From positions 124,001-188,000 of the forward strand of contig JAIOZL010000002.1 in NCBI GenBank assembly GCA_021740645.1: DNA of 64,000 nt, written 5' to 3'. A program made the translations under genes and the position numbers. Positions 6,218 to 21,404 of the stretch are shown here, one piece after another; position 1 is the first letter of the stretch, and every line of letters begins with the position of its first letter. The notes under the pieces were generated by a model. The model did no database searches. It worked only from the letters and a program-made list of their open reading frames with translations, and had not been told where the DNA came from. Source of the DNA: Bacteroidales bacterium (GTDB taxonomy: Bacteria; Bacteroidota; Bacteroidia; Bacteroidales; JAADJA01).

Positions 6218-6985
6218 TTATCTTCTGCGTCTCATTGGAAGTCTGCCAGGCATCCGGCCTTTTGTACTTCCTCCGCGTCCAAATGCTGATTGCTTTTTAA
6301 AACTGTCAATATAATAAGTGATTCCGAAACTAATATGAGTATAATAATCGAAGTTACCGTTTTTACTAAAGTCATCCAGTTTATCATTTTGAGCCTGACG
6401 CAGTGCCAGGTCAGCGGTTGCTCCAATCTTATCTGTTATTTTGTAGAAAGCCCCTGCACCAAAGAAATACACAAATTCTGGAGTTCCGGTATTATGTACT
6501 TCAGTTTGAGTTGTCTCTTCCTGCACACTCCATTTTGTTACATTGAATAAAAACTGGCCGGCACCGGCATATACATCTAATCCAACCGGGGCATAATTAT
6601 CTGCAAAAATTAAATTGACAAGATTAACCCTAAGATGGAAATTATACTCTATGATACTTGCTTCAAATGAAGTTTTTGCCGTATTTTCACCTTTTAATCC
6701 GCCATAGAGTAGCTGACCAGACATTGCAAATTTGTTGCTGAAATGCTTTGTAAGTATTCCACCTAAAGCAGGCCCACTTTCTTTTGTCAATTTATCAACG
6801 ATTTCAGTATCATAAATACTGAGATCTCCGAAAAATGAAGTTAATCCTGCATTACCATTAATTGACCAGTCGTCCCAAAAGCCTGGTTTACCTTTGCCTC
6901 CCCATGCCTGAGAGTAAGCAAATTCAGAGAACGTTGTTCCTGCAATTATGCTTATTAGTACTAAAATTTTTATTGATCTTTTCAC
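6218..6985 (-). CDS. Exported outer-membrane beta-barrel protein
   Basis: A 255-residue protein with an N-terminal signal peptide (MKRSIKILVLISIIAGTTFS, likely cut near FAYSQA) and alternating strands with aromatic ends, as in porin-like OmpA/OmpW-type barrels of Bacteroidota. There is no enzymatic motif. The C-terminus is unusual, ending in PMRRRR rather than in an aromatic residue; the neighbouring gene is a paralogue of equal length with a similar basic tail. Function is unknown. Expression probably ends at the hairpin 6125-6153. Confidence 0.7.
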   Translation of the reverse strand: MKRSIKILVLISIIAGTTFSEFAYSQAWGGKGKPGFWDDWSINGNAGLTSFFGDLSIYDTEIVDKLTKESGPALGGILTKHFSNKFAMSGQLLYGGLKGENTAKTSFEASIIEYNFHLRVNLVNLIFADNYAPVGLDVYAGAGQFLFNVTKWSVQEETTQTEVHNTGTPEFVYFFGAGAFYKITDKIGATADLALRQAQNDKLDDFSKNGNFDYYTHISFGITYYIDSFKKQSAFGRGGSTKGRMPGRLPMRRRR

Positions 6986-7030
6986 GATTTAAAATTTTAA
7001 AAATTACCTTATCTCAATTTACTTTTTTAT

Positions 7031-7798
7031 TTATCTCCTCCTGATTAAAGGTGATTTCATTCCCATTCTTTTATAATACCTTGTATCACGGGGAGAGTTG
7101 TTTAATTTATATGATAGTCCTATTGATAAATAGGAGTAATAGTCATTATCTTTACTGTTAGATGTACTCCCGTCAATCCTGTCATTGTCCATCCGGCGTC
7201 CTGAAAATTCGGTGTATACATCAAATGCATTATTAATAATATAGTATGCGCCGCCTCCAAATAAATAAACCAATTCCGGGCTTTTAGAAGCAGCAGTTAT
7301 ATCGGGTGTATTGAGGTCGTTAAATTTTAGTTTTGTGTCATAGCTAAACTGGCCCAACCCAAATATAAAATAGGGTGAAAATCGTGCACTGTTTTCCGGG
7401 ATGAATAAGTTAACAAGGTTAATTGTCATGTTTCCAGAATACTCAACGATATTTGAGACAAACTGTGATTTGGAATTTGATCCTGAAAGTTGACCAAACA
7501 AAATCTGCCCTGACAAACCAATAATAGGAGTAAATTGCCTGGATATACTAAAACAGGTTCCATAGGCTCCCTCCTTCGACATTTTCTCATTAAACTGCTC
7601 ATCATATAAACTCACGTCTCCAAAAAATGATGTGCGGCCAACATTGGCACTTATCGACCAGTTTTTTATCAATTTGGAAAAAAATGTGGGAGGTTTATTA
7701 TATTGCCCAAATGCATTTCCATTGATCAGTATGATCAAACTGATAAGAAGCAGGTTCCATGCTATCAAATAAATAATATTTCGTTTGTCATGCTTCAT
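7031..7798 (-). CDS. Exported outer-membrane beta-barrel protein, paralogue of the next gene
   Basis: A 255-residue exported protein with a hydrophobic N-terminus (AWNLLLISLIILINGNAFGQ, signal peptide or anchor). It shares with the gene at 6218-6985 the same length, the segments TSFFGD.S.YDE/T, a central NLVNL, a GGGAYY/GAGAFY strand near the end and a basic C-terminus (IRRR). The pair comes from a tandem duplication with 45 nt between them and probably forms one operon. No ligand or partner is visible. Confidence 0.7.
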   Translation of the reverse strand: MKHDKRNIIYLIAWNLLLISLIILINGNAFGQYNKPPTFFSKLIKNWSISANVGRTSFFGDVSLYDEQFNEKMSKEGAYGTCFSISRQFTPIIGLSGQILFGQLSGSNSKSQFVSNIVEYSGNMTINLVNLFIPENSARFSPYFIFGLGQFSYDTKLKFNDLNTPDITAASKSPELVYLFGGGAYYIINNAFDVYTEFSGRRMDNDRIDGSTSNSKDNDYYSYLSIGLSYKLNNSPRDTRYYKRMGMKSPLIRRR

Positions 7799-8070: not shown

Positions 8071-8718
8071 CTAACATCCTCCTTCAGAAGCGGATTTCTT
8101 TTTTCTTTTTAGCGGAGTAATTTTTTGGGTGTCATTATCCGTGGTAAAGGCTTCGGACTTATCCGGATTACTTGCCTCCTCAATTAGAGTTGCAAAATCC
8201 ATAAAGGGTTCTTCAACAAAGTATTCCGGGACATCTGGCAAGTTATAAAAGTCAATATTTTCATTGGAGATATAAGAGTAGCCCCCTAATAAAATTTTAA
8301 TATTGCTAAATCCAAGTTGTTTCAGTATCATCCATGCGCCATTAGCCTGAAGCTGATTCTCTGCATATAGCACAAGTATAACTGAATCTTCCTCCAATTG
8401 GTTAAAGAACTCAAAACTTTCTTTCTCCAGAATATCCGAAACCGGAATATTTATTGCGTTACCAAGAAAACCTTTGTTAAAATCATATGGATTTCTTAAG
8501 TCAATAAACTGGTAACTTGAGTCACCATATGCCATGATTTCCATGGCTTCATCGGGTAGCATTTCATTTTCTATGTTATATATTTCTTCCAGCATTTCAT
8601 TTGTCGAAAGCTGGTATTCAAAATCTGGTTTTCTCAGACTAATTAGTCCTATAATAATGATAAAAACAAAGATTATCGATACAATAATCAGCCTCCTTGT
8701 TCTTTTTAATTCTTTCAT
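8071..8718 (-). CDS. Membrane-anchored rhodanese-fold protein, no catalytic Cys, C-terminal SEGGC
   Basis: 215 residues: an N-terminal anchor (LIIVSIIFVFIIIIGLISL, about residues 10-28), then one rhodanese-fold domain (QFIDLRNPYDFNKGFLGNAI; IKILLGGYSYI) facing the periplasm. The active-site loop reads LYAENQLQA, so the catalytic Cys of sulfurtransferases is absent. The only Cys in the whole protein is its last residue, at the end of a tail rich in acidic then basic residues, KRKKKSASEGGC. The gene before it in the operon encodes a protein with the same arrangement and nearly the same tail. It is the last of seven tightly spaced minus-strand genes starting with the Psr-type molybdoenzyme. A role as a sulfur-carrying arm is inferred, not known. 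Confidence 0.8.
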   Translation of the reverse strand: MKELKRTRRLIIVSIIFVFIIIIGLISLRKPDFEYQLSTNEMLEEIYNIENEMLPDEAMEIMAYGDSSYQFIDLRNPYDFNKGFLGNAINIPVSDILEKESFEFFNQLEEDSVILVLYAENQLQANGAWMILKQLGFSNIKILLGGYSYISNENIDFYNLPDVPEYFVEEPFMDFATLIEEASNPDKSEAFTTDNDTQKITPLKRKKKSASEGGC

Positions 8719-8781
8719 ATTATTAGAATTTATTATCGTTCAGTATCAAAATTAAAAATCTGATTTAAATAGTAATAAATA

Positions 8782-9399
8782 TTAGCAACCTCCTTCCGAG
8801 ACTGTTTTCTTTTTTCTTTTTATTAATGGAACTTCGTCATTCTTCGTCTCTTTTGGTGTGGCTTCCAATGATCCCCCACCAAAATGGTATTTAGCTGCAA
8901 GCCTGAATGCGTAAATATCGAATTCTTCAGAGGGAGCAGTTTCCGGAGGAGGAGTAGCTTGCATAATATCTGCAAACCATTTATTTAATCCGCCTGACAA
9001 AACATAAAGGTTCTTATAGCCCAGTCTTGCGCACAAAACCCATGCTTGATCTGCATAAACATCGCCATTCGAAAAAAATACGATATCCATTTCATCCTGA
9101 TTAAGATAATCTTTCCATTCGGGTAAAAGAATTTCATCAAGCGGAATACACAAGGCATTAGGCAGAGAATATGACTGGTATTGATCAGCTGGGCGCACAT
9201 CGATAAGCATGATAGACGGATCTTCATTTATTAGCCTTTCTGCGACATGGTCAACGCTTAAATACCTCGCTTGATCATTTATTTCTTTAAAAAGCATTTC
9301 TGGTTTTATCTCGTCGGTCCGTTTTGATTCAGGAAGCAAAACCAATCCCCCTGCGATGGCAATTAGTACTATCCCCAGGATAATATATGTCTTTGTCAT
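8782..9399 (-). CDS. Membrane-anchored rhodanese-fold protein, no catalytic Cys, C-terminal SEGGC
   Basis: 205 residues with an N-terminal span (YIILGIVLIAIAGGLVLLP), a rhodanese-fold domain (IMLIDVRPADQYQSYSLPNA; LYVLSGGLNKWF) and a low-complexity tail ending KRKKKTVSEGGC. The catalytic loop reads FFSNGDVYAD with no Cys. Two other Cys exist (NALCIPLD and WVLCARLG), but neither is at the active-site position. It lies 63 nt upstream of its paralogue and 11 nt after a YeeE/YedE gene. The shared tail, which ends in a free Cys in both proteins, is probably functional; its partner may be the molybdoenzyme or the transporter halves. Confidence 0.8.
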   Translation of the reverse strand: MTKTYIILGIVLIAIAGGLVLLPESKRTDEIKPEMLFKEINDQARYLSVDHVAERLINEDPSIMLIDVRPADQYQSYSLPNALCIPLDEILLPEWKDYLNQDEMDIVFFSNGDVYADQAWVLCARLGYKNLYVLSGGLNKWFADIMQATPPPETAPSEEFDIYAFRLAAKYHFGGGSLEATPKETKNDEVPLIKRKKKTVSEGGC

Positions 9400-9410
9400 T
9401 GATTATTATT

Positions 9411-10001
9411 TTAGTAGTTAACCTCTTTTACTCTTCGCCTGATTAATGTCGCTATAAAAAACACAAAAACAGCCATTATTGTGAAGAGGAATACAAATAA
9501 GTAAGGTGAAATCCCAAGCGTTTCAGATATTGTAACTGTTCCTAAATCACCACTGTTTAACATTCCTTCAAGTGCCGGAAAAGCTTCGCTAAAAATAAAT
9601 ATTCCAATCATAAGGCCAAGAGTGAATACAATTGCATCAATTTTTCCGATACCTACTGCCACTATACTTGTTCCGGGGCAATACCCACCGGTTATAAAGC
9701 CTAGGCCCATAAATACTCCACCTATTATGGCTGAGGTAACAAAAGTGGGATGTATATAAACCATCGACATGTTAATCCATCCTAAATAGTCGAAATAGAG
9801 CAAACCAATTGCGGCTGTAACAGTGGCTGTAAAAAATACCCGCAACACGGTAAAATCATAGCCATAAAATAAACCCACAATTTTTCTGGAGGAAGAAAAC
9901 CCTGATCCTTCCATTACTATCCCGAAAGCCATTCCCAATAATACTGCAATTACATTATTCCATTGTGCTGGTATTATTTCCATTGGAATTAAAGGTCCCA
10001 T
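9411..10001 (-). CDS. YeeE/YedE family sulfur transporter, C-terminal-type half
   Basis: A 196-residue polytopic membrane protein with the YeeE/YedE signature GGYCPGTSIVAVG (Cys near residue 99), the segment that in thiosulfate transporters of this family (TsuA) carries one of the pore Cys residues. Full-length family members have two related halves; here the second half is a separate gene, 18 nt after the gene for the half carrying CTSG. Together they probably make a heteromeric transporter for thiosulfate or another sulfur species across the cytoplasmic membrane. It stands between the Psr-type enzyme and the SEGGC rhodaneses. Confidence 0.85.
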   Translation of the reverse strand: MGPLIPMEIIPAQWNNVIAVLLGMAFGIVMEGSGFSSSRKIVGLFYGYDFTVLRVFFTATVTAAIGLLYFDYLGWINMSMVYIHPTFVTSAIIGGVFMGLGFITGGYCPGTSIVAVGIGKIDAIVFTLGLMIGIFIFSEAFPALEGMLNSGDLGTVTISETLGISPYLFVFLFTIMAVFVFFIATLIRRRVKEVNY

Positions 10002-10019: not shown

Positions 10020-10550
10020 TTAAATCCAGAGTTTTCTAAAAAAATAAGCGAATAAATAAGCTGTACCAAAGATGGCAAGCATGGTAATAAATCCTCCAAG
10101 GGATAATACAGCAGCTCCACTAAGTGCGGCCCCGCTTGTACAACCTCTTGCAATTTGAGAGCCTACACCAAACAAAAGCCCACCCAGGCCTGCAAATACT
10201 AATCTTGTCCTTAAAGATATTTTTGGACTATGTTCTGTTTTGAACTTTAAGCGGCCGGCTAACCCTCCCATTAAAAAGGCTCCTGCCAGTACGCCAATTA
10301 CTTCAAAAACTAACCAATTATTCATCGGATGTTCATCATCACTAATAAATTTGCTATAATAAGCCGATTCTTCTGCATGCTGAGGAGCTACCTTGTCTAC
10401 TGCAGCAACTACCGTACTTTTTGCTGCTCCACTTGCACCAAGTCCCCTTCCGGTGATATAAAAGGTAGCTAGGAGAATTAACCCAAGCATTACTCCTCCA
10501 AAATATGGATTAAAGTAAAGTGCGCTCCTGTCTGTATCGTTTGTTTTCAT
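10020..10550 (-). CDS. YeeE/YedE family sulfur transporter, half with CTSG motif
   Basis: A 176-residue membrane protein with about four spans and the family signature ARGCTSGAALSGAA (Cys near residue 137), matching the other Cys-bearing half of YeeE/YedE transporters. The insert between spans one and two (about residues 40-75) is hydrophilic. It follows the NrfD-like gene by 24 nt and precedes the second half by 18 nt, so the two subunits should be made together. The substrate is inferred from family and context to be thiosulfate or sulfane sulfur. Confidence 0.85.
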   Translation of the reverse strand: MKTNDTDRSALYFNPYFGGVMLGLILLATFYITGRGLGASGAAKSTVVAAVDKVAPQHAEESAYYSKFISDDEHPMNNWLVFEVIGVLAGAFLMGGLAGRLKFKTEHSPKISLRTRLVFAGLGGLLFGVGSQIARGCTSGAALSGAAVLSLGGFITMLAIFGTAYLFAYFFRKLWI

Positions 10551-10574: not shown

Positions 10575-11516
10575 TTAGTATAGGTAACGAGTAATCTGGC
10601 CTGCTTCAACCATAATAAAACGAAATACAAGCCCGCCAATCAATATGAGTGCAGCAGGAATAGCTACCGGAATTTTGTACCCAACCAGTTCCAGAATTTC
10701 AAGGGCAGCTGGAAAAAGCAGTCCCAGGATTATTACAAATACCCAAAAAGAAACAGTGAATTGCCCACCAAGAAATAAGCTGGCAGCCTCTAGCTGAACA
10801 CTTGGTCCAGCCAGAAATCCCATGATCATATGGGTAATTAAAAATAATTCTATGGCAATTAATAGTAAATCTATTTTGCTTAAGATGTTTCGTTCATAGT
10901 GGCTTTTTGACATCCACATTATAGCTGCCGTTCCTGTAGACATGCCGGAAACAAGAAACAATGGCCCCAGGATAGAGTTATTCCATAGAGGCCGTGCATT
11001 AAAGGCTGACAAAAGTATCCCTGTGTAAATACCAAGGATTACAGCAAAAATCATCATGAACCACGCTAACAATTTTCGATTATTATTCACCCAATTTTCC
11101 AAAACATCCATTATTTTAAATTTCCAATTCCATTCAGGAATGGCATCTTTTATATAGGCTGCTACCCAAATGATGGAAAGTGGAGTAATAAACATTAAAG
11201 TCCAGGCACCCCATGACATGGGTGAGGTCATTCTGATGGTAGTATATAATTGCCAAAAATATAATTGATGTTTCAAGTCAAAAAATAATGCGATCAATCC
11301 CAGGATTAATGCACCAGGAACCAGAAAAGTTGCCCACTTCACTGTTGTTTCCATTTCTTTTTCTTTGTTCAGAACAGTAAAAAGTCCTGCAAAAAATAAT
11401 ATTCCTGCAGCTAATCCACCCAGAAAAAGATAAACCGGGATATGCCAGTGCCAGATATGTAAAAAAGGGTCAATGTTTGGAATATCCCTGCCGCTTGCAA
11501 ATAATTCTTCTCTCAT
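10575..11516 (-). CDS. psrC: NrfD/PsrC-like integral membrane subunit
   Basis: A 313-residue protein with eight to nine hydrophobic spans of the NrfD/PsrC family. It anchors the molybdoenzyme and Fe-S subunit and exchanges electrons with menaquinone. It begins PFLHIWHWHIPVYLFLGGLAAG (about residues 18-39), typical of the first span. No heme-binding pattern is expected in this family. It lies 14 nt after the Fe-S subunit gene in the order A-B-C seen for polysulfide and thiosulfate reductases. The start MREELFASGRD is the first ATG of the frame. Confidence 0.88.
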   Translation of the reverse strand: MREELFASGRDIPNIDPFLHIWHWHIPVYLFLGGLAAGILFFAGLFTVLNKEKEMETTVKWATFLVPGALILGLIALFFDLKHQLYFWQLYTTIRMTSPMSWGAWTLMFITPLSIIWVAAYIKDAIPEWNWKFKIMDVLENWVNNNRKLLAWFMMIFAVILGIYTGILLSAFNARPLWNNSILGPLFLVSGMSTGTAAIMWMSKSHYERNILSKIDLLLIAIELFLITHMIMGFLAGPSVQLEAASLFLGGQFTVSFWVFVIILGLLFPAALEILELVGYKIPVAIPAALILIGGLVFRFIMVEAGQITRYLY

Positions 11517-11530
11517 TGCTTATGGTTTAT

Positions 11531-12064
11531 TTAAGTAAGAAAATAAATTTGTGGTTTAGTTCCTGCTTCGGGTGCTAAAACTTTAAACTTTCTGTTTTTA
11601 AGAGCTAATGATACATCACTATTCGGGTCGTCTAAATCCCCGAAATAAAGGCATTTGGTAGGACACACAGAAACACATGCAGGTTGTTGGCCTTTTTCAA
11701 CCCGGTGAATGCAAAAAGTACATTTGTCAACATATCCTTCAGGATGGGAATACCTTGCATCATAGGGGCAGGATTGTATACATGCTCCACAACCAATACA
11801 TTCATTGTGAGTCACCAATACGATCCCGCCTTCAACGATATGACTGGCTCCTGTAGGACAGCATCTTACACAGGGAGAATTATCGCAATGATTGCATCGC
11901 TCTGATCGCAATTCAATTTCTACATTAGGGTAAGTGCCATCCACCGTTTCAGTGATCCAGTCGCGGCAATAACCAATTGGCACATTGTTTTCGGTTTGAC
12001 AAGCTACCACACAATCGCTGCAACCGACACATTTCAGGGTATCTACTGCCATCGCATATCTCAT
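11531..12064 (-). CDS. psrB: 4Fe-4S electron-transfer subunit (PsrB/PhsB type)
   Basis: A 177-residue ferredoxin-like subunit with four cluster motifs: CVGCSDCVVAC (residues 12-22), CNHCDNSPCVRCC, CIGCGACIQSC and a last set starting CTFC. It passes electrons between the molybdopterin subunit and the membrane subunit. There is no export signal of its own, so it should travel folded with the Tat-signalled catalytic subunit. Its ATG overlaps the stop of the catalytic gene (ATGA), which supports translation at matched amounts. Confidence 0.93.
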   Translation of the reverse strand: MRYAMAVDTLKCVGCSDCVVACQTENNVPIGYCRDWITETVDGTYPNVEIELRSERCNHCDNSPCVRCCPTGASHIVEGGIVLVTHNECIGCGACIQSCPYDARYSHPEGYVDKCTFCIHRVEKGQQPACVSVCPTKCLYFGDLDDPNSDVSLALKNRKFKVLAPEAGTKPQIYFLT

Positions 12065-14307
12065 AATTCAACCTCCTTTCCTGGATCTTCTGTTAAAAAT
12101 GTTACAAAATTACCTCTCATTCCGGTCCCACCCATTATCGGGTCTACCATTACATTTGTGATCATTTCTGTGTCGCTTGCTCCTTTGCCATATGCCCTGC
12201 TAAGTTTTCGATTTGTATGTCCAAAGCCATGAACCATATATACCGAATCCCACCTGATTCTTTCCGTAACTCTCACTTTTATTGGGAAAGAGGAAACTAC
12301 ATCATCCTGGTTTTTTAGCCAAACATATTGCCCTGTTTCCAAATCCCAGAGTTTTGCTACTTTTGGATTTACCCACAGGTCATTTTCTTTTTTCAAATCA
12401 GTTAAATTAGGATTATTTGCTGTTCGGCTAAAGGTATGCATAGGTGCTCTTCCATATATTAACCTGTAAAATCCATACTCTGGCTCTGGATGTGGAGTGT
12501 ATACCGGCATCGGATCAAATCCTAAACCGGCTAACTCTGCAGAGTATAATTCAATCTTACCTGAACTGGTATTAAACTTATAATCCTCTCCGTTTTTTAA
12601 ATATGGTGAACCTGTTTCTCTTTCATATTCTTTGTAGCCTATTTTCTGCATTTCCTCTAAAGAAGTACCCACTTTCTGCAGCTGCCAGTCGAGTACTTCA
12701 GAAAAATCATTGTAATTAAAATACTCTTGAAGATTCATCCTGTCACCAAGTTGCTTGGCCATCCACCATGCGGGTTTTGTATTATACTTTGGTTCTACCG
12801 CGGGCATTCTTAAAGCAATATTTGGTTTTCTGTTTGTCGCTGACCGGATTCCATCATACCGTTCAAGATAGGTACATTCAGGAAGGACAACGTCTGCATA
12901 ACCGGTGATATCCATGGGCATTGTATCAACAACCGCTAAAAATTCAATAGAATTTAATGCTTTACGAACCAATTCTTTGTTAGGAATAGTTTTAATAAGA
13001 TTTGTTCCTGCAATTAACCATGCTTTTACTTCATGCCCTTCCGCCTCTTCTGGGATTGAAGCTTTGATGATCTCGGTGGTAATACCCATTCCGGCGAGCG
13101 GATATTTTTCTCCCAGGGTTTCCCAGGACCATTTTGGTTTTGGGAAAGGGGGGTGTGGGTATTTGGGTAGTCCAAGTTTTTCTTTAAAATAAAATCCTCC
13201 TCGCTTACCCCATGATCCAAGTAAAGCATTTAAAATAGCCATTGCCCTTGCCCTCTGTGTGTCATCTCCATACCAGGTTACATGTCTTCCGGGATGCACT
13301 ATAACTGAAGGAGAGGCATCCGCCATGGCTCTTGCAGTTTCTCTAATAACATTTGGTTTTATGGTGGTAATTCCATATGCCCATTCTGGCGTCATGTTTT
13401 CTACATGTTCCTTTAGCTGTTCAAAACCAATAGTATATTGATTTACATAGTCCCTGTCGTAAAGGTCATCATAAATCAAAACATGAACCCACGCCATAAG
13501 TAGTGCAATATCAGTGGCAGGTTTTATTGGTAACCAATATTTTGATTTGCTGGCTGCTGTAGAAAGCCTTGGGTCAACAGTGATGATGGTTGCTCCCTTA
13601 TCAATTGCATCCGACATTTCCTGCACCTGACTGTTGTGCATATTTTCACCAATATGTGAACCTATCAAAACCAGACATTTGGTGTCACGGATATCAGTAG
13701 GCTCAGGTGAGCCAACCCAACTTCCAAAGGTAGTTGAAAATCCAACTTCACGAGGGCCTCTGCATTGGGCATAGGCAGGTTCTCCAATGGTATCGGAACC
13801 ATAAGCTTTAAATAAGTGTTCAAAATGAGAACCTGGGGAACCATGCTTTAAAAGTGCAAAACTTTCCGGCCCGTATTTCGATTTAATTTCTTCCATTTTA
13901 CTGGCAATCAAATCAAGAGCTTCTTCCCAGCTGGCCTCTTTAAAAGTTTGTTTTCCCCCTTCATTTACTCTGATCAGTGGAGTTTTCAGCCTGTCTTCAT
14001 CGTTATACATTCCAATTCCACCTGTTCCGCGAGGACATAGCCTGCCATTGCAGTGAGGGTCATCTTCATTGCCAATTATTTTTACTATTTCGTTGTCGTC
14101 ATTCACATAGGTCCAACCGGCGCATTTCCAAAAACAAACCTCACAATAGGTCGGAAATCGACGTAGGTTTTGGTTTTTAGGTGCTCCTTTTGGCCCATCT
14201 GATGCAAACAGAGAAGGCCCTTTGAGAAAACTTACAGAGGATGCTGCTAAGGCAGCTCCTCCAGCTCCCAGGGCAGATATTTTAATAAAATCCCGCCTGT
14301 TACTCAT
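12061..14307 (-). CDS. psrA: Molybdopterin oxidoreductase catalytic subunit, Psr/Phs (polysulfide/thiosulfate reductase) type
   Basis: A 748-residue member of the DMSO-reductase family. A Tat signal is visible (NRRDFIKISALGAGGAALAA), so the enzyme faces the periplasm. The N-terminal 4Fe-4S motif is C55-x2-C58-x3-C62-x28-C91, and the probable Mo ligand is Cys182 (YAQCRGPREVG). The length fits Psr/Phs enzymes and is shorter than most arsenate or tetrathionate reductases. The next genes encode the Fe-S subunit, the membrane subunit, two halves of a YeeE/YedE transporter and two rhodanese-fold proteins, so sulfur chemistry is likely. Polysulfide, thiosulfate and sulfur cannot be told apart from sequence, and the oxidative direction is possible. 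The divergent region upstream carries a candidate Crp/Fnr site. Confidence 0.85.
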   Translation of the reverse strand: MSNRRDFIKISALGAGGAALAASSVSFLKGPSLFASDGPKGAPKNQNLRRFPTYCEVCFWKCAGWTYVNDDNEIVKIIGNEDDPHCNGRLCPRGTGGIGMYNDEDRLKTPLIRVNEGGKQTFKEASWEEALDLIASKMEEIKSKYGPESFALLKHGSPGSHFEHLFKAYGSDTIGEPAYAQCRGPREVGFSTTFGSWVGSPEPTDIRDTKCLVLIGSHIGENMHNSQVQEMSDAIDKGATIITVDPRLSTAASKSKYWLPIKPATDIALLMAWVHVLIYDDLYDRDYVNQYTIGFEQLKEHVENMTPEWAYGITTIKPNVIRETARAMADASPSVIVHPGRHVTWYGDDTQRARAMAILNALLGSWGKRGGFYFKEKLGLPKYPHPPFPKPKWSWETLGEKYPLAGMGITTEIIKASIPEEAEGHEVKAWLIAGTNLIKTIPNKELVRKALNSIEFLAVVDTMPMDITGYADVVLPECTYLERYDGIRSATNRKPNIALRMPAVEPKYNTKPAWWMAKQLGDRMNLQEYFNYNDFSEVLDWQLQKVGTSLEEMQKIGYKEYERETGSPYLKNGEDYKFNTSSGKIELYSAELAGLGFDPMPVYTPHPEPEYGFYRLIYGRAPMHTFSRTANNPNLTDLKKENDLWVNPKVAKLWDLETGQYVWLKNQDDVVSSFPIKVRVTERIRWDSVYMVHGFGHTNRKLSRAYGKGASDTEMITNVMVDPIMGGTGMRGNFVTFLTEDPGKEVEL

Positions 14308-14583: not shown

Positions 14584-14973
14584 GTGAAGATTTCAAGGAA
14601 AGACTTTATCATAAGGTTTTGGTGGATAACCTTTTTGCCTTATGTGTTACTTTTGATATTAATGGAAAAAAAGCACTCCTTCGTTTCTAGGAAAAAAGTA
14701 ATTACCATACAGGGTATTTTCAGTCAGGCCATCACTTTTAAAGAAGAAGTAATTTGTATTAAATCTGAAAAGGGGTTAAAAGTGTTTTCTTCAAAATGCA
14801 CTCATCTGGGATGTAAAATAGATAAAGTTCACAATGGAAAACTGGTTTGCCCTTGCCATGGTTCTGCATTTGATCTGAAGGGAAATGTATTAAACGGTCC
14901 TGCAGCAAAGAACTTAACAGAATTAACTTATACCATTGATCATGATTTAAATGAAATAATAATCAAATTATAA
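14584..14973 (+). CDS. Rieske 2Fe-2S protein
   Basis: 129 residues with an N-terminal membrane anchor (FWWITFLPYVLLLILM, about residues 12-27) and a Rieske domain with both ligand boxes: CTHLGC (72-77) and CPCHGS (89-94), including the disulfide Cys pair of high-potential Rieske proteins. It accepts electrons from quinol at a cytochrome b partner. The start is a GTG, because the ATG two bases before it is followed at once by a stop. The cytochrome b/multiheme gene begins two bases after its stop, so the two form one complex. Confidence 0.92.
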   Translation: MKISRKDFIIRFWWITFLPYVLLLILMEKKHSFVSRKKVITIQGIFSQAITFKEEVICIKSEKGLKVFSSKCTHLGCKIDKVHNGKLVCPCHGSAFDLKGNVLNGPAAKNLTELTYTIDHDLNEIIIKL

Positions 14974-14975
14974 AA

Positions 14976-17747
14976 TTGGAAAAAGTAAGAAAAATATGGG
15001 CTTTTATCCTTTTCGATACCTATGGAAACATAGCACTTGCCTCATTTCTTATCTGTATTATTTCTGGTTTTATCCTGGCTATTCCTTACGATGTTCAAAA
15101 TGCCTATGAATCTATAGCATTAATGCTCATTACAAATTTACCTGCGGTAATTTTCCGAAATATGCATTATTGGAGTGCCCAGTTTTTTCTTGTCTTTACT
15201 TTATTGCATACCTACGAACACTTGAAAATCAAATCAGCTGCAAATGTTAGTGGGGGAGTATGGGCCAAATTGGTTTTGTCTGTTTTAATAGTATTTTTTG
15301 TCATGCTTTCTGGATTTATTCTTAAAGCTGATGCGGATAGTTTGCAGGCAAAAAGGATACTTGAGAGCTTAATTTCAGATATTCCTGTTTTAGGGAAGTT
15401 ACTTGCCGGTTTATTTTATGGGAAATCCGATAGTTTACAAGTTTTATATGTGCACCATATAGCCACGGGCACCATTCTTCTGATCTTTATAATTATAGAA
15501 CATGCCAGGGTGATCTGGTCTAAACGAAATACCTTGCTACTAACTTTGGCTATTCTCACCTTATTAAGCTTTTTCGTTCATGCCCCATTACATGATAGTA
15601 TCAACCCAATATTGAAGGGACCCTGGTATTTTGTTGGTTTGCAGGAAATCATCCATTGGATGAGCAAACCAGGATGGATTTGGGTATTTATCTTCCTGTT
15701 TCTTATCTTCCTTTTCCTATTGAAATATGCAAATGAAAAAAGTACCCGGATAGCCCTAAAAACAATTTTAAGTTTGAGCCTGGTCTATTTAATTTTAACT
15801 GTTATTGGATTTTATTTCAGAGGGGAAAATTGGGGTTGGAAAAACCCATGGGAGTCCACCTTTTGGAAAGTTCAAATGATACCTGAATCGGGAATTAAAA
15901 TAATAGATTCACGTTTTGCAAATTTAACTTCAATGGATATTCCTGTGGTAAATGGAAAAAGAGAGGCTTGCATAAACTGTCATACCAATCTCACAGGTTT
16001 CTCTCCTTCACATAATCCTGAGGCAATAGGTTGTACCTCCTGTCATCTTGGTAATCCATTTACCCTCGATAAAAAAAAGGCACATAAGGGAATGGTATTA
16101 ATTCCGGGAAATCTTACTGATGCAAGCTTTACATGCGGAACTGCAGATTGTCACGCAGGAATTCCCGAGCGGATCAATAATTCATTAATGACTACCAATA
16201 GTGGCTTAGTCAGCGTGGATCGTTTTGTTTTTGGTGAAGCACATTCACCTGATATCCTGGCCCATATCGAAGATATTGGCTTTTCAGCAGCGGACAAGCA
16301 TCTGCGTGATTTATGTGCCAATTGCCACCTGGGAAATGAAAAAATGGAAACCGGGCCGATAGATCAATTATCAAGGGGAGGAGGCTGTAATGCCTGCCAC
16401 TTAAGTTATTCAGATGAAGGCATTAGGCAACATTTAGCCTACCAAACATCAGGAAAGAAAGAAAAACATTTACCGCAAATTCATCCTTCACTGGATATTC
16501 AAATTAATAATGACCATTGTTTTGGATGTCATAGCCGCTCAGGGAGGATTGCCACAAATTATGAGGGTTGGCACGAAACCCTATTAAATCAGGAGGATGT
16601 TGAAGGGGATTCCAATTACAGGGTTCTTCAGGATTTAAGGGTTTCTAAATTTATAAAAGCTGATGTGCACCATTTGGCCGGTCTTGATTGCATCGATTGT
16701 CACAACAGTTATGAAGTAATGGGAGATGGTAATTTATATGCCCATGAAGAGCAGGCTGTAAAAGTACGATGTGAAGATTGCCATTTTAACGCTGAACCAA
16801 ATACCCTTACCTACGCACAACTTGATGCCGAATCAAAAAAAATAGTTGACTTAAGAAAATTTGCATATGCTGATAGGAAAATGATGAGAGCCTCCGAATC
16901 AGGTTTTGCCTTAATCAATACATATCTCGAAAATGACAGTGCGTTCATGGTGGGGAAAAATACCGGAAAGATACATCCAATGAATCCTCCGGCAACAGTT
17001 TGTATGAAAGATCAAGTGCATGAAAGTCTCACCTGTAGTTCCTGCCATACGGCATGGGCGCCTCAATGTATTGGTTGTCATAATGAATTTGATAGGAACG
17101 CAGAAGGATTTGATTTGTTGGATAATAAATTTGTAAAAGGGGAGTGGGTAGAATATGTGGGAAGCTTTTTTGCCGAGCCCCCTACCTTGGGTGTTAGAGA
17201 AAATGAGATAAAAAGAGTTGAACCAGCAATCCCCGGTATGGTATTAACGATTGATCGTAAAAGTTATTCACCCGAAGACTCCACTATTTTCCACCGCCTT
17301 TATGCACCTTGTGCTCCACATACAACAAGCATAGTGGGAAGGAATTGCAAGTCCTGTCATAATAATCCTTTGGCACTTGGATATGGAAGAGGAGAGTTAA
17401 CATATGAAGTAAAGAATGAAAATGGGAAATGGAAATTCACTCCTCAATTTGCCCCCAATAAATACGATGGATTGCCGGAAGATGCATGGATTGGATTCCT
17501 GCGCGAATCATCCGATGACTCGAAGCCTGCCCAGCGGGCAGGCGGGTCATCGGATGAGTCTTTAAGCTCAACCCGAACTGATTTCAGGCCATTTAATCTT
17601 GAGGAACAAAAAAGAATACTCACCGTCGGGGCCTGTTTGACCTGTCATAATGATGATTCTGAAATAATTCGTAAAAGCCTTGATGAGGAATTTAAAACAT
17701 ATCTTGGCAAGCTGAGTGACAAATGTATTCTGCCCGATTTTAACTAA
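14976..17747 (+). CDS. Cytochrome b fused to multiheme cytochrome c
   Basis: 923 residues, TTG start. Residues 1-285 are a cytochrome b/b6-type membrane domain: heme-b His pairs H64/H78 and H161/H176 (spacings 14 and 15; the latter is b6-like) and a Qo-type segment GPWYF at 215-219 where PEWY is usual. After the last span a long extracytoplasmic part carries eleven CxxCH motifs (starting at 332, 353, 447, 471, 515, 572, 599, 687, 698, 791 and 887) and one CGTADCH (387-393), a CX4CH variant. With the Rieske protein it should oxidise menaquinol or receive electrons, and pass them along c hemes. Residues 845-861 are encoded by a palindromic repeat inserted in frame. Confidence 0.88.
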   Translation: MEKVRKIWAFILFDTYGNIALASFLICIISGFILAIPYDVQNAYESIALMLITNLPAVIFRNMHYWSAQFFLVFTLLHTYEHLKIKSAANVSGGVWAKLVLSVLIVFFVMLSGFILKADADSLQAKRILESLISDIPVLGKLLAGLFYGKSDSLQVLYVHHIATGTILLIFIIIEHARVIWSKRNTLLLTLAILTLLSFFVHAPLHDSINPILKGPWYFVGLQEIIHWMSKPGWIWVFIFLFLIFLFLLKYANEKSTRIALKTILSLSLVYLILTVIGFYFRGENWGWKNPWESTFWKVQMIPESGIKIIDSRFANLTSMDIPVVNGKREACINCHTNLTGFSPSHNPEAIGCTSCHLGNPFTLDKKKAHKGMVLIPGNLTDASFTCGTADCHAGIPERINNSLMTTNSGLVSVDRFVFGEAHSPDILAHIEDIGFSAADKHLRDLCANCHLGNEKMETGPIDQLSRGGGCNACHLSYSDEGIRQHLAYQTSGKKEKHLPQIHPSLDIQINNDHCFGCHSRSGRIATNYEGWHETLLNQEDVEGDSNYRVLQDLRVSKFIKADVHHLAGLDCIDCHNSYEVMGDGNLYAHEEQAVKVRCEDCHFNAEPNTLTYAQLDAESKKIVDLRKFAYADRKMMRASESGFALINTYLENDSAFMVGKNTGKIHPMNPPATVCMKDQVHESLTCSSCHTAWAPQCIGCHNEFDRNAEGFDLLDNKFVKGEWVEYVGSFFAEPPTLGVRENEIKRVEPAIPGMVLTIDRKSYSPEDSTIFHRLYAPCAPHTTSIVGRNCKSCHNNPLALGYGRGELTYEVKNENGKWKFTPQFAPNKYDGLPEDAWIGFLRESSDDSKPAQRAGGSSDESLSSTRTDFRPFNLEEQKRILTVGACLTCHNDDSEIIRKSLDEEFKTYLGKLSDKCILPDFN
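17508..17557. repeat. 50-nt nested palindrome (REP/MITE-like) inside the multiheme cytochrome gene
   Basis: TCATCCGATGAC (17508-17519) is the exact reverse complement of GTCATCGGATGA (17546-17557), and inside it GCCTGCCC (17525-17532) pairs exactly with GGGCAGGC (17536-17543) around a three-base loop. The GC-rich core is unlike the surrounding AT-rich gene. It is read in frame as a Ser/Asp/Gly-rich linker between the last two heme motifs. No second copy was seen in the window. Confidence 0.8.
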
Positions 17748-18563: not shown

Positions 18564-19796
18564 ATGAAGAAGCTGTTGATTATTGGTGCTGGCACCGGTG
18601 GGACAATAATGGCTAATAAGCTGAGGAAAGACCTTCCCAGGGATAATTGGGATATTACAATCGTTGACCAGTATAAAACCCATTACTATCAGCCGGGATT
18701 TCTTTTTATACCTTTTGGTTATTATAAGGAAGCTGATGTTATTAAACCCAAGAATAATTTTATCCCGGTTGGTGTTAATTTGATATATAGCGAAGTAGAT
18801 AAGGTTGAAGGAGAAAACAATAAGGTATTTCTCAAAGATGGTGAGGTATTAAAGTATGATATTCTGATAATTGCTACCGGAACCCGGATCGCTCCGGAAG
18901 AAACCCCCGGATTAAAAGGAGAACTTTGGCACAAAAGCATTTTTGACTTTTATACCATAGAAGGTTCCAAAGCACTTGCCAGTTTCTTTAAAACTTGGGA
19001 GGGTGGCGAATTGGTGGTGAACATAGCGGATATGCCCATTAAATGTCCGGTTGCCCCGCTTGAATTTTCATTTTTTGCTGACGCATTTTTCCTTGAAAGA
19101 GGTATGCGTGATAAAGTAAATATCACCTACGTTACTCCACTTTCAGGAGCTTTTACTAAACCACGCGCATCTAAGATGCTTGGGAATCTGCTTGAAGAAA
19201 AGAACATTAAACTGGTTACGGATTTTTTCCTGGGTGAAGTGGATAATGAAAATAAAAAGATTATTGATTTTGGTGGTCAGGAAATCCCGTTTGATTGCCT
19301 CATAAGCATACCCATACATACCGGGGATGAAATGATAGAGCGAAGTGGCCTTGCCGATGACCTTGGTTTTGTCCCTGCAGATAAGAATACCTTACAATCC
19401 AATAAATTCGAAAATGTTTTTGTAATTGGCGATGCTGGAAATTTCCCTACTTCAAAAGCAGGTTCGGTAGTCCATTTTCAGGCCGATACCCTTCATGAAA
19501 ACCTATTGTGTTATATTGAAAACAGACCATTCACAAGTAGTTTCGACGGGCATTCAAATTGTTATATTGAAACTGGTCATGGTAAAGGCGCACTCATTGA
19601 TTTTAATTACGACACAGAACCATTGCCTGGTTCATTTCCATTTCCTGGTTTGGGCCCATTCGGTTTGTTAAAAGAATCCCGGATGAATCATTACGGAAAG
19701 CTTATGTTCCGATGGATTTACTGGCATGTATTATTAAAAGGCAAAGAAATGCCCATCGATAGTCAAATGACGATGGCGGGTAAAAAAATGGAATAA
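18564..19796 (+). CDS. sqr: Sulfide:quinone oxidoreductase-like FAD flavoprotein
   Basis: 410 residues with an N-terminal FAD loop GAGTGGTIMA (8-17), ATG at 104-106 in the second dinucleotide segment, and a C-terminal FAD contact VFVIGDAG (285-292). Of the three Cys of classical SQR, two have counterparts, C161 (MPIKCPVAPLE) and C333 (NSNCYIETG); the first is missing. Those two are the pair that carries sulfur in known SQRs, so sulfide oxidation to polysulfide with reduction of quinone is likely. It heads a five-gene plus-strand operon of sulfur-trafficking genes. Other members of the flavoprotein family that use different sulfur substrates are an alternative. Confidence 0.85.
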   Translation: MKKLLIIGAGTGGTIMANKLRKDLPRDNWDITIVDQYKTHYYQPGFLFIPFGYYKEADVIKPKNNFIPVGVNLIYSEVDKVEGENNKVFLKDGEVLKYDILIIATGTRIAPEETPGLKGELWHKSIFDFYTIEGSKALASFFKTWEGGELVVNIADMPIKCPVAPLEFSFFADAFFLERGMRDKVNITYVTPLSGAFTKPRASKMLGNLLEEKNIKLVTDFFLGEVDNENKKIIDFGGQEIPFDCLISIPIHTGDEMIERSGLADDLGFVPADKNTLQSNKFENVFVIGDAGNFPTSKAGSVVHFQADTLHENLLCYIENRPFTSSFDGHSNCYIETGHGKGALIDFNYDTEPLPGSFPFPGLGPFGLLKESRMNHYGKLMFRWIYWHVLLKGKEMPIDSQMTMAGKKME

Positions 19797-20903: not shown

Positions 20904-21404
20904 ATGGCAGAAAATGATCATTCCATAAAAAAGGTTAGCATCATCTGTGCTAAAGGAACCATCGAAGATGTGTATGCATCTCTGGTAATGGGCAATGGCG
21001 CAGTAATGGAAGGAATTGAGGCAAACCTGTTTTTTACCTTTTTCGGATTAGAGGCAGTAATAAAAAATAGAATGGACAAACTACATACCGGTGTTGTAGG
21101 AAATCCGGCGATGAGGTTACCGGGTGGCGCCCGCATGCCTACCTGGCTGGGAATTATTCCGGGTATGGAAGCTATGGTATCGGGTATGATGAAAAAAGAA
21201 ATGGATAAACTGGATGTTCCCCCGGTAAGTGAATTTATCGAATTATTTGTTGCGGGTGGTGGAAACCTATGGGCTTGTAAACTTGCTGCTGATATGTTTA
21301 AAGTAAAACAAGAAGACCTGAGTGAACATGTAAAAGGAATCATCACTGTTGGTGAGTTTTACGAAAAAGCGGGCGGCCCTGATAGTCAGATTATATTCAC
21401 TTAG
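20904..21404 (+). CDS. DsrE2-like sulfur-trafficking protein
   Basis: 166 residues of the DsrE/DsrF/peroxiredoxin-like family. The N-terminal strand has IICAKGT (Cys15); a hydrophobic middle part (TWLGIIPGMEAMVSGMM, about residues 80-96) is typical of the membrane-associated DsrE2 form; and GNLWACKLAADMF near the end carries Cys125, the conserved sulfur-binding Cys. Such proteins hold persulfide and exchange it with rhodanese and DsrC/TusE partners. It follows the DsrC/TusE-like gene by 39 nt, a pairing also seen in known sulfur-oxidation clusters. Confidence 0.85.
   Translation: MAENDHSIKKVSIICAKGTIEDVYASLVMGNGAVMEGIEANLFFTFFGLEAVIKNRMDKLHTGVVGNPAMRLPGGARMPTWLGIIPGMEAMVSGMMKKEMDKLDVPPVSEFIELFVAGGGNLWACKLAADMFKVKQEDLSEHVKGIITVGEFYEKAGGPDSQIIFT

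Follow-up and report, generated by a model that had tools for sequence, protein, structure and literature searches.

DsrC and TusE carry sulfur on a cysteine of a flexible C-terminal arm. Sud, the polysulfide-sulfur transferase of Wolinella succinogenes, is a periplasmic rhodanese-fold protein that works with PsrABC; we know of no cysteine tail or membrane anchor in it. For SoxY, it is established that the sulfur-binding residue is the cysteine of the C-terminal GGCGG sequence (PMC6067878). PMC11582611 contains the proposal that SoxY passes its sulfur to SoxT, a YeeE-type transporter; in Hyphomicrobium, the sulfur of SoxY is thought to enter the cytoplasm via SoxT and to be received there by rhodanese, DsrE and sHdr proteins. 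The same paper treats the hand-over of sulfane sulfur from extracytoplasmic enzymes to YeeE-type importers as an open question, and describes PmpB and PmpA as matching the two halves of PF04143; we know of no Cys-tailed rhodanese described alongside them. In the literature searched, with most subscription journals outside its coverage, no description of Cys-tailed rhodaneses was found.

The window analysed here is a stretch of 64,000 nucleotides from a Bacteroidales bacterium (assembly GCA_021740645.1, contig JAIOZL010000002.1, positions 124,001-188,000), and coordinates are positions in this window. On its minus strand, genes for PsrA, PsrB, PsrC/NrfD, a YeeE C-terminal half, a YeeE N-terminal half and two rhodanese-fold proteins, Rhd2 and Rhd1, follow each other in this order. 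By coordinate, the features are:

8071..8718, minus strand: Rhd1, 215 amino acids; membrane anchor at the N-terminus, rhodanese fold lacking the catalytic Cys, C-terminal Cys
8074..8109, minus strand: Rhd1 tail codons, KRKKKSASEGGC; the last Gly-Cys is invariant in the 42-row Rhd1 alignment
8782..9399, minus strand: Rhd2, 205 amino acids; N-terminal membrane anchor, rhodanese fold, flexible tail with final Cys
8785..8820, minus strand: Rhd2 tail codons, KRKKKTVSEGGC; Gly204 and Cys205 are invariant in the 51-row Rhd2 alignment
9411..10001, minus strand: YeeE/YedE N-terminal half (PmpB-like), PF04143 profile positions 8-154; fused in other classes to an Rhd2-type rhodanese
10020..10550, minus strand: YeeE/YedE C-terminal half (PmpA-like), PF04143 profile positions 177-309
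10575..11516, minus strand: PsrC/NrfD-type membrane subunit, PF03916, 160 bits
11531..12064, minus strand: PsrB-type 4Fe-4S subunit
12061..14307, minus strand: PsrA/PhsA-type molybdopterin catalytic subunit with a Tat-type N-terminus, matching 2vpw with E 8e-194

The neighbouring genes thus encode the three subunits of a PsrABC-type enzyme, with NrfD and 4Fe-4S subunits beside a catalytic subunit whose best solved relative is 2vpw, from Thermus thermophilus. The NCBIfam PhsA model scores 480 bits on PsrA, under its cut-off of 694. The two short proteins that follow match the two halves of PF04143, in the way described for PmpB and PmpA (PMC11582611).

Rhd1 and Rhd2 belong to the rhodanese superfamily, scoring 46.5 and 55.1 bits, respectively, with the Pfam Rhodanese model (cut-off 22.2). 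No other domain was found in either protein, the Pfam scan giving Rhodanese only and the NCBIfam scan rhodanese-type matches only; the SoxY domain PF13501 was absent in the Pfam scan, and the DsrC fold in both scans. A PF13501 search of 12 genomes gave no match, its control likewise matching nowhere. In the GlpE alignment, the position of the catalytic Cys is taken by Ala in Rhd1 (YAENQLQA) and by Ser in Rhd2 (FSNGDVYA), so that both lack the active-site loop Cys of an active rhodanese. Rhd1 ends in ITPLKRKKKSASEGGC, its last residue being its sole Cys; Rhd2 ends in VPLIKRKKKTVSEGGC and has three Cys residues, two of them in the core. The C-terminal pattern KRKKKxxSEGGC is common to both. Sequence, Pfam match and GlpE alignment all agree with an earlier note on this DNA, which had described two N-anchored rhodaneses without a loop Cys, ending in SEGGC, with one Cys in the product of 8071-8718.

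The AlphaFold2 model of Rhd2 (mean pLDDT 87) consists of an anchor helix, the rhodanese domain and a helix of residues 157-174, followed by a tail of about 30 residues (176-205) with low pLDDT. The Rhd1 model is similar (pLDDT 86), with low confidence at its C-terminal end. The best PDB matches are rhodanese-fold proteins, with Z up to 15.3, and the Rhd2 profile matches Sud (1qxn) with an E-value of 4.5e-4. From the models, the tails are probably disordered, and an arm of around 30 residues should, by contour, be long enough for reaching a neighbouring active site. The charge is positive before the anchor and slightly negative after it; this modest positive-inside signal fits an N-terminus inside and a rhodanese domain that would be periplasmic.

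We consider it fairly probable that Rhd1 and Rhd2 are extracytoplasmic sulfur carriers, in which a SoxY-like Cys arm, with the sulfur presumed to ride on its Cys, is mounted on a rhodanese scaffold. Each protein would be tethered by its N-terminal helix on what would be the periplasmic side of the inner membrane, and the rhodanese pocket, devoid of the catalytic Cys, would probably act in binding or docking. The terminal Cys of the Gly-flanked, usually Lys/Arg-rich flexible arm would provide the reactive thiol. This arm would reach the active site of its partner enzyme, which would be PsrA in this genome and an octaheme cytochrome elsewhere, accept or donate sulfane sulfur there, and offer it to the YeeE/PmpAB importer, a Cys-containing transporter, in genomes that encode one. 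The presumed partners of the arm are PsrA and YeeE, and the flow of sulfur may be oxidative or reductive. Such an action would resemble that of the SoxY GGCGG arm and the role of Sud for the Wolinella Psr, and would be identical to neither.

The likeness to SoxY would lie in an extracytoplasmic location, a Gly-flanked reactive Cys on a flexible C-terminal arm (here GGC, on a low-pLDDT tail) and a YeeE-type transporter nearby. Lipoprotein relatives of Rhd1 and Rhd2, described below, have a GGCGG identical to the end of SoxY, while the Rhd1/Rhd2 family itself mostly has GGC. In contrast to SoxY, Rhd1 and Rhd2 have a rhodanese fold and a membrane tether, and the genes of their family accompany those for PsrABC or for an octaheme cytochrome. 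They differ from Sud by lacking its Cys in the rhodanese loop. DsrC and TusE, the analogues named in the earlier note, have another fold, a cytoplasmic location and DsrAB or tRNA thiolation as partners. SoxY is a closer analogue than DsrC/TusE: relatives of Rhd1 and Rhd2 end exactly in GGCGG.

To collect homologous loci, the YeeE C-terminal half alone was used as query, making the search blind to the tail; it gave 43 loci from public genomes. Contigs end early in two, and all of the 41 with enough flank contain a rhodanese with Cys at the end or one residue before it. The earlier note had held that its proposal would be refuted if most homologues in the operon lacked the terminal Cys; the outcome was the opposite. 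Among 124 aligned homologues (counted by eye, some loci being redundant), the terminal Cys is kept in 119 and the pocket Cys is missing in 118; along with the low-pLDDT tail, these counts give good support to a thiol placed on a flexible tail and no longer in the pocket. Not every sequence shows this swap, as the remaining six retain the pocket Cys. Invariant columns comprise core residues, Gly204 and Cys205 in Rhd2 (51 sequences), and Asp73, Arg75, Gly136, Gly214 and Cys215 in Rhd1, although the 42 Rhd1 rows were picked for possessing the tail Cys. When 395 genomes from the phylum were scanned with a profile, 95 had a match at 1e-10; among the best-scoring matches, 31 of 31 proteins, read from 29 loci, end in GGC or EGC, and weaker matches may differ. 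Homologous loci are present in Maribacter (L038), Winogradskyella (L068) and Jejuia (L041), marine flavobacteria that can be cultured. Outside Bacteroidota in the wide sense, the family was found in a Chloroflexota genome (L076), while L067 and L070 are titled as other phyla and are perhaps misbinned.

A genome-wide pattern search for GGC followed by a stop, each true-stop site being read within its ORF, gave three ORFs of at least 100 amino acids: Rhd1, Rhd2 and a further rhodanese on contig C59. Cys is the last residue in none of 192 other ORFs of at least 200 amino acids in the related loci. Given these two results and the 119 of 124 homologues, the GGC ends of Rhd1 and Rhd2 are not due to chance. 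We regard it as highly improbable that the tail is a C-terminal sorting or lipid-attachment signal. It would resemble some processing signals in being short, terminal and basic, but an anchor or a lipobox is already present at the N-terminus of these proteins, and the genome has just one other GGC-ended protein of at least 100 amino acids, which is also a rhodanese.

Some variation surrounds the conserved end. The lysine-rich stretch varies among homologues, with tails such as GGDEGC and SSGGGC, and in five loci a second paralogue has no terminal Cys. In three of them (L054, L059 and L067), the first rhodanese ends in GGCS, and the second, located after the YeeE halves, has a GGH end and is entirely free of Cys; in the other two (L063 and L070), the second paralogue has no tail in the frame read. 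In L180, the rhodanese after the YeeE halves (6665-7360) ends in LRFQC, keeping the Cys and having lost the Gly-Gly, and a protein with three rhodanese stretches lies upstream in place of Psr. In one relative (L010, 2555-2995), a third, short Rhd1-like ORF with the end TAGGC follows Rhd1.

Where both paralogues are present (44 loci), their last ten residues share a mean identity of 83% when compared within the same locus and 48% when compared across loci, their cores being only 24% identical. In 23 cases, the tails of a locus match each other better than they match the nearest other locus, and in 18 the two matches are equally good. Similar tails on divergent cores are expected when both arms enter one partner site, and we read the match as a sign of selection exerted by such a common site, to which gene conversion may have contributed in part. 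At identical tail residues, codons agree in 202 of 354 cases (expected, 167.5 ± 8.7); gene conversion as the full cause was rejected, this DNA-level similarity being insufficient by itself. In a tree of the roughly 100-residue domain, Rhd2 groups with the YeeE fusions (UFBoot 89), Rhd1, Rhd2 and the fusions together reach a UFBoot of only 62, and the lipoprotein group has no resolved placement, so that the tail may have arisen once or several times. The matching tails could also be those of a docking peptide, with the Gly-Gly-X end and basic stretch seating the protein on its enzyme and the Cys being unreactive; GGH in place of GGC in one clade (L054, L059, L067) would agree with this. We find it decidedly unlikely, since it is the Cys that is invariant and the basic stretch that varies, and the Cys persists even in the altered FQC end of L180.

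The carrier reading gains a tie to the importer from gene fusions. The N-terminal half of YeeE runs on into a GGC-ended rhodanese in L053, L060, L069, L071-L074, L076 and L077, in genomes of the Ignavibacteria/Kapabacteria type and in many of the genomes scanned across the phylum. Several of these fusions lie behind genes for an octaheme cytochrome and a cytochrome b, rather than with psrABC. In most loci, psrABC is in the same operon as the Cys-tailed rhodaneses; of 16 wider regions read, nine are of the psr type and five of the octaheme type. In genome G393 (99% complete), psrABC is followed directly by rhd2 and rhd1, both with GGC ends, and the genome gave no match to the YeeE C-terminal half, the only part used as query. 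The Cys-tailed rhodanese module thus accompanies two unrelated redox enzymes, and the occurrence of the tail without the YeeE C-terminal half and without Psr favours a general carrier over one fixed pair. A ferry of persulfide between Psr and YeeE, as suggested by the earlier note, is plausible, not obligatory: the tie to YeeE is strengthened by fusions in whole clades, whereas G393 and the many fusions beside an octaheme cytochrome in place of Psr speak against a compulsory Psr-to-YeeE route.

A structural disulfide, with the terminal Cys linking Rhd1 to Rhd2 as a heterodimer or to a partner in the Psr/YeeE complex and no sulfur transferred, would agree with the usual co-occurrence of two paralogues with matching tails. 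It is unlikely, as the fusions and several loci have one GGC-ended rhodanese only, and the GGCGG with which the lipoprotein relatives terminate is a motif found in an established sulfur carrier. Alternatively, the terminal Cys could have a Dsb- or SoxS-like thiol-redox role instead of carrying sulfur, reducing or resolving persulfides that have formed on YeeE, PsrA or the octaheme cytochrome; in Hyphomicrobium, the neighbour of SoxT1A is a gene for a DsbA-like protein that has a pair of Cys at its C-terminus (PMC11582611). With often one Cys, no conserved CxxC and a rhodanese instead of a thioredoxin fold, we hold this to be quite unlikely.

The third GGC-ended rhodanese of the genome, on contig C59, adjoins a cytochrome b and an octaheme cytochrome, the latter scoring 569 bits with the TIGR04315 model for the tetrathionate reductase family (cut-off 375). 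It is a lipoprotein that retains the pocket Cys (YCKKGNRG; L108, 4561-5127). Its relatives in the same order are lipoproteins too, the majority with a GGCGG end, and several of these relatives retain the pocket Cys as well. The GGCGG rhodaneses adjoin genes for full-length YeeE, another rhodanese, and DsrE-like and HdrA-like proteins, a gene set closely parallel to the Hyphomicrobium route of SoxY, SoxT, rhodanese, DsrE and sHdr proteins. In L209-L212 and L215, the clusters comprise full-length YeeE, GGCGG lipoprotein rhodaneses, a two-domain rhodanese, and DsrE-like and HdrA-like proteins.

For a general, hitherto unrecognised carrier class, with a SoxY-type Cys arm on membrane-held rhodanese-fold proteins serving interchangeable redox enzymes (PsrABC, octaheme cytochromes) and loading YeeE, we see the chances as evenly balanced. 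Such carriers, their reactive thiol having moved from the pocket to the arm, would make up a Sox-independent relay of sulfane sulfur in Bacteroidota in the wide sense, extending to one or more Chloroflexota genomes. The family also adds a second protein scaffold bearing the GGC(GG) arm of SoxY. It is widespread and apparently provides a novel means by which sulfur passes between a sulfur-redox enzyme and an importer. With a presumed carrier that is fused to an importer half in some genomes, and a near-invariant terminal Cys, the hand-over question becomes addressable by a single-residue change.

Divergent from the psr operon, positions 14584-17747 of the window encode a Rieske protein and then a single protein in which cytochrome b and an ExtM-like multiheme cytochrome are joined, a pair kept beside the psr operon in many loci. 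Positions 18564-19796 encode a type III SQR, scoring 643 bits with the NCBIfam selenoprotein-subtype model (cut-off 525), and 20904-21404 a DsrE2-like sulfur carrier, with a score under the model cut-off.
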